From the NCBI GenBank assembly GCA_009692365.1, contig SHZJ01000010.1, positions 24,481-88,480 on the forward strand: a DNA stretch of 64,000 nucleotides, read 5' to 3'. This stretch comes from Gammaproteobacteria bacterium (GTDB taxonomy: Bacteria; Pseudomonadota; Gammaproteobacteria; Ga0077536). Numbering within the stretch: the stretch's first letter is position 1; each line of letters starts with the position of its first letter. The position numbers and the translations under genes are program-made. Below are positions 58,209 through 62,048 of the stretch, piece after piece. The notes below the pieces were generated by a model, which did no database searches, had not been told where the DNA came from, and saw only the letters and a program-made list of their open reading frames with translations.

Positions 58209-59648
58209 TCAGTTAGCCGTGGCTGTCGCTGCTTCTAGCAGTTCGCGCAGCTTGGGAAGGGCGTGGTTTAGCAGCTCGCCCATGGCCTGAATTTGCGCGA
58301 CCACCGCCGGGTTGCCGAAGTCAAAGTAAGGGCTAAAAAGATCCACGCGCGACGCATTGAGCCACGACACCACCGCCGGCTCGGTTAGCCAGACCAGCAT
58401 GTTTTCGCTGTCTTGGAGGACGCAGCGCAGGTAGTCAGAAGCCCGGTGCGGCAGCGGGACCGGGCGACACAACTCGTTCATCCGCGCCTCGTCTTGCAGA
58501 TTCGCTGCCACATTGCCGATGCACGCGGCGCTGTACACCTGTTGGCACATGCGCACTGTCTGCAGCGTGATGCGGTTTCCAGCAAAGACTTTTTTCGCGG
58601 GGCGCTGCTTCAGACCATCGGCAGCGCAGTCCACCTGCAACGCGCCAGGCGCGGTCTGGTAGCGCCCTTGCTGCAGTTGCAGCGCGCCCGACGCAACCAC
58701 CTCAACGTGACCCAGACGCACGATGTTCGGGATGCGGCGCAACTGCTCCAGTTCCAGTTGGGTGACGGTCGCGCAGCGCCAGTTGGTGGGTTTGACCGAG
58801 GGGTCGAACTGGCGCAGCTGCCCGCAGGCAACCACTCACCGGAAGAAGTCATCAGTAGAATTCGCCGCGAGTGCCGCCCGCAAAACCTCCCCGCGTCCGG
58901 CCGTAATGATGGCAGTGAAATGGCGGCCAGGGTTGACTGTGAAGCGGTCAAACAGCCACGCATCGTTCGGCATGACCCAGGTAATGTTGGCCGGAGCCAC
59001 GCCGTGCTCGAGCAGGAACAAGCAGCTGTCAATGCCGGTCTTGCCGGATCCGATCACGACGAAGTGGCGGTATTCGGGTGCCAGTTTCGGCAGGCTATTG
59101 GGTGCTGCGCAGGCAACGCCGGCGGCAAGCGTGAAGCGGGGCGGCCGCTGGGATGGCACCGCCACGTTGATGTAAGTCGCGTCCACAATTTTCTGCGCGC
59201 GAATCTCGTACTCATTACCGTTGCCGCGCGAAACTACCCGCCCATCGCCAAGGTACTCGCTCATGGGCAAGTACTTTACCCGGCCCGACGGCAGGAAACG
59301 CTGCCGCATCACTTGGTCGAAATACGCGACTACCTCGCTACCGCTGGCCAACTCGTAACAGCCTTTGTTCCAGCCTACCGGGTCGATACTGTGGCGGCCC
59401 AAGGGTGTGGAATTCACGCCATAGCACGCCGAGGCCTGATGTAGACGCACGAAGGGATAAGCGTCATTCCAGTGGCCGCCCGGGCGGTGGTTTCGATCGA
59501 CGATGGTCACCGAGGCCGACGTTTGGGTGACGATTTCATCCGCGAACGCCAGCCCCATGCCGCCTGCACCGACGATCAAATAGTCGCTATCAATGATTGC
59601 CGTCAGCGCTAATTTTCTCGGTGGTGTTAGGTTGTCGAGGCGGCGCAT
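58209..59648 (-). pseudogene. FAD/NAD(P)-binding oxidoreductase interrupted by an in-frame TGA (58836-58838)
   Basis: N-terminal part 'MRRLDNLTPPRKLALTAIIDSDYLIVGAGGMGLAFADEIV...VVIGSGKTGIDSCLFLLEHG...STDDFFR' ends at TGA. The same frame continues immediately with 'VVACGQLRQFDPSVKPTNWRCATVTQLELEQLRRIPNIVRLGHV...' to 58209, with no frame change. Confidence 0.75.
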
Positions 59649-60102
59649 CCCACGCGACGGTTCGGTGCCAGTGGTCGTGCCAGGCAGCGCCGTGAAATTG
59701 CCGCTGGCCACCACCCCACCGCGCCCGCCCGGTGGCCGCAGACAGCTTTTGCGCGGCGTCGGAATGGCACAGCATTCGGCGCTGGACTCGCGGCGACAAG
59801 CACTTCGGTCTTGGCAGATGGGGCGCCCGCACGAGCGGGCCAGCGGGCCTCGAGACGAGGCGCTGGACGCCTCAATCATGCCCCGCTGATAAGATACCAT
59901 TCTCTCCACAGCTGGGAAAAAGGTCCTGACTTGCGCCAGCTGCTGGTTCGGCAGGCGAGCAAAACAGGGGGAAATAAAGACTCTCGGCGCAGCGCATCGG
60001 AGCGTCGCACTGCCAACCCCACCGAGCGCTGGGCCGCCGGGCTGACGGTCTTTAGATCTGGTTGTACACTCGGACAGGTCTTCAGCTTGGCGAGGAAATG
60101 CC

Positions 60103-61530
60103 ATGTCACTGCCCAACGGACTGATTGCAGTCGTCAAGCGCGATTGCCCAACCTGTTTGCTCGTGGACCCGGTGCTGGTAGAAATTGAACGCGCGGGAAA
60201 GCCGTTGACCGTGTACGTGCAAGACGACCCCAGCTTTACGCAGGCCGCTGGCAGTGTTGACGATCGTGATCTGGCGCAGTCGTTTCGCTTAGGCATCGAA
60301 ATCGTCCCAACCTTGATCGAGGTCGTGGCGGGGCGGGAGGTGCAGCGCACTATCGGCTGGGTGCGCAGCGAATGGGCAGCGGTCAGCGGCTTGGCCACGC
60401 TCGGCGCGGATCTCCCCGCGCATCGACCCGGCTGCGGCTCCAAATCGGTCGAGCCCGGCATCGCCGAACAACTGGCTCTGCGCTACGGCAATACCGGCAT
60501 GACCGCGCGCCGGGTGATCGTTCCGCCCCAAGAAGACGACATCGAGGTTTGCTTTGAGCGCGGTTGGAGCGACGGCTTGCCGGTGGTGCCACCCAGCGAA
60601 ACGCGGGTTTATCGCATGCTGCAGGGTACCTCACGTGCGCCCGCTGAGGTGCTGGGCTTGGTACCCCCCAATTTGTCTGCCTGCACGATTGAGAAAGTGG
60701 CCATCAACGCCGTGATGGCCGGTTGTAAACCAGAATATCTGCCGGTCGTCATCGCCGCCGTGGAAGCCGCGCTCGACCCGGCATTTTGTTTGCACGGGCT
60801 CCTTGCCACCACCTGGTTTTCTGGCCCCATGATCATCGTCAACGGCCCCATCCGTGAGCGCATCGGGATGAACTGGCAGGGCAACGTGTTAGGGCAGGGT
60901 AATCGCGCGAACGCCACCATCGGGCGGGCGCTGCAGCTCGTGGTACGTAATGTGGGGGGCGGTCGGCCACGAGAGGTCGACCAAGCCACTTTTGGGACAC
61001 CCGCCAAGTTGTCTTTTTGCTTCGCCGAAGACGAGGCAACCGCCTGGACTACGCTGGGCGAGGACCGCGGTTTTCGCCGTGACCAATCCAGCGTGACGCT
61101 GTTCAGCGCCGACGGACCGTTGGGCTGCGCTGATCAAAAATCTCGCACGCCGCAGCCGCTCATCCGCTCGCTTGCCGGTAGCCTGCGGGCCGTCACTCAC
61201 GTGGAGATGACTAACGCCAGTGATGCGGTAGTGGTGATTGGGCCCGAGCATGGCCGGGTGTTTGAGCAGGCGGGTTGGAGCAAAGCGCAAGTGTTGGGGG
61301 CGCTGCACGCGGCGTTGCAGATCCAGGGGCAAGATCTCGGCATGGGCACCGACGCGGCGGCCCCGGTAGCGACCCCAAACACGGCGGGAACCCGCGCTAA
61401 ATTCCGCCCAGAGGGGCTGACCTTGATCCGTGCCGGCGGCCAGGCTGGACTTTTTTCCGCTATTATTCCCGGGTGGCTAATGAAGGGATCGCTAGGTACT
61501 GATCCCGTCAGTAAGGAGATCCTTCCATGA
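60103..61530 (+). CDS. thioredoxin-like (CPTC) N-terminal domain fused to a conserved uncharacterised C-terminal domain; partner of the UGSC protein
   Basis: 'MSLPNGLIAVVKRDCPTCLLVDPVLVEIERAGKPLTVYVQDDPSF...LGIEIVPTLIEVVAGREVQRTIGWV' is a thioredoxin-like fold with CxxC and cis-Pro (VPT). The ~300-aa C-terminal part contains 'FERGWSDGLPVVPPSETRV'. Stop overlaps the next start as ATGA. Confidence 0.8.
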   Translation: MSLPNGLIAVVKRDCPTCLLVDPVLVEIERAGKPLTVYVQDDPSFTQAAGSVDDRDLAQSFRLGIEIVPTLIEVVAGREVQRTIGWVRSEWAAVSGLATLGADLPAHRPGCGSKSVEPGIAEQLALRYGNTGMTARRVIVPPQEDDIEVCFERGWSDGLPVVPPSETRVYRMLQGTSRAPAEVLGLVPPNLSACTIEKVAINAVMAGCKPEYLPVVIAAVEAALDPAFCLHGLLATTWFSGPMIIVNGPIRERIGMNWQGNVLGQGNRANATIGRALQLVVRNVGGGRPREVDQATFGTPAKLSFCFAEDEATAWTTLGEDRGFRRDQSSVTLFSADGPLGCADQKSRTPQPLIRSLAGSLRAVTHVEMTNASDAVVVIGPEHGRVFEQAGWSKAQVLGALHAALQIQGQDLGMGTDAAAPVATPNTAGTRAKFRPEGLTLIRAGGQAGLFSAIIPGWLMKGSLGTDPVSKEILP

Positions 61531-62048
61531 ATGCTGTTCTACTCGACCCCACCGGAGAACGCGATCCGGTAAAACGCTCACCGCTGGCGAAACCGGCGAC
61601 CCTCGCTGGCCTCACCGTTGGTCTGCTCGATATTTCGAAAGCGCGCGGCGACGTGTTTCTCGATCGCCTAGACGAAATGTTCAAGGCCCAAGGCGTGGCC
61701 ACCCGGCGCTACAAAAAACCCACGTTCGCGCGCCCCGCGCCCATTTCGCTGGTGCAAGAAATTGCCAGCCAGTGCGATGTGGTGGTGGAAGGCCTGGCCG
61801 ACTGAGGTTCCTGCACGTCGTGCAGTTTGCATGACATCAGAGAACTCGACGGGCGTGGCGTACCAGGGGGCTTCATCGCCTCAGAAGTTTTTCGCACGGC
61901 AGCGAGTGCCCAGAGTGAGGCGTTCGGTTTCTATCCCAACGGCCTGTTCGTCGCGCATCCTATCCAGGACCGCACGGACGACGAAATGCGCCAGCTCGCA
62001 GAGGATGCCTTTAGCGCCGTGTGCGCGATGATCAGCGCGCCGGCTTAA
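61527..62048 (+). CDS. UGSC family selenoprotein (in-frame TGA at 61803-61805 read as selenocysteine)
   Basis: Continuous frame across the TGA: MNAVLLDP...EIASQCDVVVEGLAD-U-GSCTSCSLHDIRELDGRGVPGGFIASEVFRTAASAQSEAFGFYPNGLFVAHPIQDRTDDEMRQLAEDAFSAVCAMISAPA (173 aa). The U-G-S-C motif matches the UGSC family; a bSECIS-like hairpin follows; ATGA coupling to the upstream gene. Confidence 0.85.
61817..61835 (+). promoter_or_regulatory. candidate bacterial SECIS stem-loop
   Basis: gtcgtgca-gtt-tgcatgac: 8-bp stem (one G-U), loop GUU beginning with G, 19 nt between the UGA and the loop. An alternative overlapping stem ctgcac-gtc-gtgcag (61811-61825) is mutually exclusive. Confidence 0.65.

Follow-up and report, generated by a model that had tools for sequence, protein, structure and literature searches.

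In aquatic metagenomes, UGSC proteins belong to the selenoproteins found in greatest abundance. The 2008 GOS survey already described UGSC-containing selenoproteins, giving 255 forms with selenocysteine (Sec) and 21 with cysteine (PMC2398784), and a 2026 review places UGSC among the selenoproteins whose functions are still largely uncharacterised (PMC13188914). No biochemical account of any UGSC protein was found in the literature. Among better described selenoproteins, GrdB, GrdF and GrdH carry the motif UxxCxxC, and glycine reductase gets its electrons from thioredoxin (PMC6778437).

Here we compare with these systems a pair of genes of a gammaproteobacterium, contained in a stretch of 64,000 nucleotides of contig SHZJ01000010.1 (the window). 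The features of the locus, with the evidence for each in brackets, are the following:

60103 to 61530, + strand: partner gene, 475 aa, with a thioredoxin-like domain, Cys111 and an unmodelled domain (upstream in 76/77 loci, thioredoxin matches, Cys conservation)
61513 to 61518, + strand: Shine-Dalgarno sequence AAGGAG of the UGSC gene (sequence)
61527 to 62048, + strand: UGSC-family selenoprotein gene, 173 aa through one TGA (translation with TGA as U, NF041046 and PF24696, homologs)
61803 to 61805, + strand: predicted Sec-encoding TGA, codon 93, the U of UGSCTSC (recoded stop here in all homologs read)
61817 to 61835, + strand: putative upper stem-loop of a bacterial SECIS element, stem 61817-61823 with 61829-61835 and loop A-G-U-U-U at 61824-61828 (silent-site conservation, pairing)

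The UGSC gene starts with the ATG at 61527 and ends with the stop codon at 62046-62048; its start codon shares bases with the stop of the upstream 475-aa gene in the ATGA overlap at 61527-61530. In a list of ORFs made with standard table 11 it appears as a 92-aa ORF and a downstream 73-aa ORF. The preliminary description had joined the two through the TGA into a 173-aa selenoprotein of the UGSC family, and on re-reading of the sequence its coordinates, the TGA and the lengths of both ORFs and of the read-through product were all recovered. Both curated models support the family assignment: the read-through protein scored 130.8 bits with NF041046 (cut-off 125) and 128.8 bits with PF24696 (cut-off 25), while the 92-aa fragment preceding the TGA reached 50.5 bits alone with NF041046. 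Considering that the NF041046 match passes the cut-off and runs from residue 28 to 169, on both sides of the TGA, the read-through is not due to chance. The continuity of the protein across the TGA, also proposed beforehand, is seen as well in the conservation downstream of this codon, which reaches across phyla. The extra Cys that had been pointed out in UGSCTSC is present, is invariant in 80 of 80 sequences of the subfamily and is missing in the paralogs (UGSCTSG, UGSCTSW); the protein has three invariant thiols/selenols, Sec93, Cys96 and Cys99. The statement that automated annotation would lose the functional centre of the protein applies to the listing of ORFs, which splits the gene, but not to all annotation, since the NCBI pipeline has the family model. 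The gene is an additional member of an already known family, and it is the less surprising because that family had been described.

Alternatively, the TGA could be a true stop, or it could have arisen by a sequencing error or by a mutation in a pseudogene; the protein would then have 92 aa and the sequence after it would be unused. The two separate ORFs of table 11 agree with it, as does the absence from the assembly of selD, considered below; the homologs are against it. In the taxonomic family of the organism UGSC matches were found in 31 of 36 genomes, and all the 57 matches have exactly one in-frame TGA. In 31 family sequences read in detail, which include the paralog of the same genome, the TGA corresponds to the U of the motif, which is USTC in locus L037 and UGSC in the others. 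A wider scan covered 84,980 species genomes and recovered 80 loci, distributed among Gammaproteobacteria, Alphaproteobacteria, Actinomycetota, Chloroflexota, Latescibacterota and other groups. TGA is present in 77 of them and TAG in 3, and a sense codon in none; this count is not independent of the 57 matches, as some loci come from the same genomes. The peptide patterns used in the scan began after the Sec or stopped before it, and therefore they were not biased toward TGA over Cys. The three TAG loci (L102, L114, L125) all belong to Geodermatophilaceae (Geodermatophilus, Blastococcus), where UAG is decoded as Sec by a CUA tRNA-Sec and UGSC proteins are among the published examples (PMC5330540); as judged from their sequences, the three loci agree with this published code. 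Because a recoded stop is present in all the homologs, a sequencing error at the TGA, or a sense codon at 61803 hidden by it, is excluded.

The nucleotides 3' of the TGA show a second type of conservation. Among 96 distinct UGSC sequences the silent positions are nearly fixed only in codons 97-103 (codon 102 excepted), and they vary upstream of the TGA and beyond codon 104. Ser100 is encoded by AGT in all of 92 sequences, while Ser95 uses all six codons. Counting from the U of the UGA as nucleotide 1, nucleotides 15-21 are paired with 27-33 in 95.5% of cells, versus 63% (maximum 69%) in synonymous reshuffles, and the loop is A-G-U-N-U, in which G23, U24 and U26 do not vary among 88 sequences. 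In the window the stem has 7 bp and the loop AGUUU begins at nucleotide 22, with G at loop position 2; this hairpin agrees with the published constraints of bacterial SECIS elements (PMC13188914). The folding energy of the single sequence is unexceptional (z -0.3) and uninformative, therefore the evidence for the SECIS is comparative. From this comparison codons 97-103 are predicted to form a bacterial SECIS hairpin, selected at the RNA level.

The preliminary description had also called for a search of selA, selB, selC and selD in the genome. Contig C79 carries the tRNA-Sec (68.4 bits, also detected by ARAGORN) and selA (555 bits), and between them a selB-like GTPase ORF that was recognised by reading and not by a model. 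In the assembly of this species, which is 93% complete, selD was not found; the search gave two matches only, a ThiL-like gene beside ribH/nusB-like genes and a short PurM-type match. Above the cut-off, selD is present in 29 of the 36 genomes of the family, including 8 of 8 other congeners. In the close congener G012 it is a fusion of the Ndh-SelD type, and of the 11-kb region around it the assembly has a counterpart for 69 bp only, where contig C9 ends. Since the congeners carry selD and its G012 region is absent from the assembly, we read the missing gene as an assembly gap rather than a loss; that selD was lost, and hence that no Sec is made, was judged unlikely. Taking together the recoded stop in near and distant relatives, the protein conservation downstream of it, the selection on the SECIS and the presence of tRNA-Sec, selA and selB, the reading of the TGA as stop, error or pseudogene mutation is refuted by the comparative data and the SECIS, and we give it a negligible probability. 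The UGA at codon 93 is almost certainly read as selenocysteine, as had been proposed. The swap of UGA for UAG in Geodermatophilaceae and the silent-site signature of the SECIS together make a clear comparative proof of Sec coding.

In our opinion this locus is more interesting for the partner gene, and for the Sec form of it, than for the membership of the UGSC family. Of the 80 loci, 76 (or 76 of the 77 with enough upstream sequence) have a homolog of the partner 5' of UGSC and in the same orientation, and in 74 the two genes are no more than 150 nt apart; three of the exceptions are cut by contig ends, and in the other one (L106) the contig coordinates place the partner upstream as well, at a distance of about 7 kb. 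Across the 36 genomes of the family, the matches of partner and UGSC co-occur near 1:1. The partner is formed by a thioredoxin-like domain at about residues 1-95 (C15xxC18), a Cys111 within GCGS and an unmodelled domain with Cys306; all 35 sequences compared have C15 and C18 (CPTC), C111 and C306. Thioredoxin profiles match the N-terminus (E 7e-4; TIGR01068 in 24 of 35 members), and beyond this domain there was no match in Pfam or NCBIfam. With Foldseek the partner gave weak matches to class I fumarate hydratases (E 4e-4, TM ~0.2); a fumarase-like fold of the C-terminal domain was discarded as too weak, with its very low TM-score and no support from sequence models.

The same genome has a second UGSC gene, a UGSCTSG selenoprotein on contig C63 (L039/L045). 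It adjoins a gene with the C-terminal domain of the partner (36% identity), but the order of the two genes is reversed. This neighbour lacks the thioredoxin-like domain, and Pfam gave no match for it. Since the thioredoxin-like domain is lacking in the partner of some paralogs and also in that of L068, a closer homolog, it is not universal. In L037, from genome G021, the partner domain and UGSC are fused in one chain, with the motif USTC instead of UGSC; this genome has many copies of the partner domain (12 matches). The search of the neighbourhoods beyond the partner gave lineage-specific neighbours only and no clue to a pathway. In the window, an ORF similar to FAD/NAD(P)-binding proteins (58836-60461, minus strand) is divergent to the partner and, as listed, overlaps its start; the true start of this ORF is probably near 59.6 kb.

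In loci L093 and L096 the partner ORF is broken by a TGA exactly at codon 111, the position of the otherwise invariant Cys. Among 148 genomes of the order of L096 there are four with one TGA in the partner, and with G037 the number rises to five actinobacterial genomes (L093, L096, L199-L203). The five proteins all read FKPG-U-GSL(T/S)VDPGR(V/I)DELR, and downstream of each of the five genes comes a UGSC gene that has a TGA too. A hairpin is located 3' of the TGA of the partner, and its arms vary while the pairing is kept (GGTCGATC/GGATCGAC, GGTCGACC/GGGTCGAC, GGTTGACC/GGGTCGAC). In a search of the open literature, which was not exhaustive, no report of a selenoprotein form of the partner was found; the Sec111 form is apparently an unreported selenoprotein.

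The AlphaFold2 model of UGSC (pLDDT 90.6) is a five-strand alpha/beta structure whose best matches in the PDB are flavodoxins (E 3.9e-5, TM 0.4-0.5), and Sec93 is placed in the turn between the central strand 85-91 and the helix 94-109. A sequence search of the PDB with UGSC gave nothing meaningful. By this model UGSC would be flavodoxin-like rather than thioredoxin-like, and the thioredoxin-like fold regarded as likely in the 2008 survey (PMC2398784) is not supported by it. This comparison bears on the idea that UGSC is a lone thiol oxidoreductase of thioredoxin fold, acting on protein disulfides or peroxides. The resemblance of UxxC to redox-box motifs and the fold proposed in the survey are in its favour, but the high-confidence model resembles flavodoxins and the thioredoxin-like domain sits in the partner, with which UGSC travels, and we consider such a lone enzyme improbable. 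Less improbable, though still unlikely, is that UGSC and its partner are a noncatalytic pair that binds or carries a metal or selenium, with Sec93, Cys96, Cys99 and Cys111 and Cys306 of the partner as ligands. On this reading, the weak similarity to class I (Fe-S) fumarases would come from a domain of the partner that binds a cluster, and the three invariant thiols/selenols of UGSC are consistent with the same role. Against it are the structural scores of the fumarase matches, without counterpart in the sequence models, and the invariant CPTC of the thioredoxin-like domain, which favours electron transfer.

The best explanation overall, with a probability of about 0.65, is that UGSC contains Sec and provides the selenol of a two-component reductase formed with the upstream protein. 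SelB and tRNA-Sec would decode the UGA of codon 93, directed by the hairpin located about 11-30 nt downstream, and UGSC would be the catalytic selenol subunit of the reductase. The selenolate of Sec93 would attack either a thiol/disulfide or, as in GrdB/PrdB, an electrophilic substrate. Cys96 or Cys99 would then resolve the oxidised Sec93, and electrons would be returned by the thioredoxin-like domain of the partner (C15xxC18), possibly via Cys/Sec111. Of this scheme, the data show the Sec coding (by comparison), the hairpin, the machinery genes apart from selD, the motif with its invariant thiols and the tight association of UGSC and partner genes; the physical complex, the electron path and the reaction we infer, and we give the two-component redox mechanism an even chance. 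More tentatively, and with somewhat less than even chances, this would be a two-component selenoenzyme of wide distribution, made of a stand-alone selenol domain of the GrdB/PrdB type and of a partner with a thioredoxin-like domain of its own, this partner being itself an unrecognised selenoprotein family (Sec111, in some Actinobacteria). If this is true, there are operons with the genes for two selenoproteins of the same enzyme. The near-invariant partner, the exchange of Sec and Cys and the likely link to GrdB/PrdB give a specific and assayable two-subunit hypothesis for what was an "unknown redox protein".

By comparison with GrdB, GrdF and GrdH (TIGR01917/TIGR01918, PF07355), the Sec subunits of glycine, sarcosine and betaine reductase, UGSCTSC has the same spacing as UxxCxxC. 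Matches to TIGR01917 were obtained in 33 of 39 UGSC members (best E 8e-6), and in the members scanned singly they do not exceed ~21 bits, versus a cut-off of 602; the protein of the window gave no match to TIGR01917 or TIGR01918. Residues ~76-147 of a relative of UGSC align to columns 333-398 of GrdB. These matches vanish once the three Cys are masked, therefore the remote homology rests on profile-profile results that are moderate. UGSC differs from GrdB in its scores, far below the cut-offs, and in lacking the N-terminal part of GrdB (173 versus 431 model positions). No pyruvoyl subunit of the GrdE/PrdA type was identified beside UGSC at this locus, where the adjacent partner has only thioredoxin-type matches. 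Membership of GrdB was rejected, as the motif and weak scores are all that is shared and the full-length comparison fails.

PrdB of D-proline reductase (TIGR04483) and the PrdB-like selenoproteins of the family have UxxC at the aligned position. The profile-profile comparison of UGSC with the PrdB-like proteins gave P 2.9e-4, 1.3e-3 with the Sec masked and 6.8e-5 with all three Cys masked, the corresponding match probabilities being 41%, 18% and 63%, that is, moderate; the comparison of UGSC with the partner, used as negative control, gave 0.47 and no match. The PrdB-like proteins differ in their motif, UPVCHQT, and are longer than UGSC. The genome of the window has one of them (L145, G000 C37:40840-41040), with an in-frame TGA (ALLVAM-U-PVCHQTV), and many genomes of the family have genes like it. 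The comparison suggests that UGSC is likely, although not proven, to be remotely homologous to PrdB/GrdB, and we do not claim membership of these families.

With the UGSC family itself (NF041046/PF24696) there is no difference in kind: the protein of the window passes both cut-offs and has the U-G-S-C motif and the SECIS, and its subfamily is set apart by UGSCTSC with the second invariant Cys. The 2008 GOS paper includes a conserved uncharacterised domain, Unknown_1, associated with UGSC and fused to it. This domain is probably the C-terminal domain of the partner, and the fusion of L037 would be the UGSC/Unknown_1 fusion of that paper; in comparison with the form given there, at the loci described here it is mostly encoded by a separate upstream gene, with a thioredoxin-like domain added, and in some Actinobacteria it appears to be a selenoprotein.
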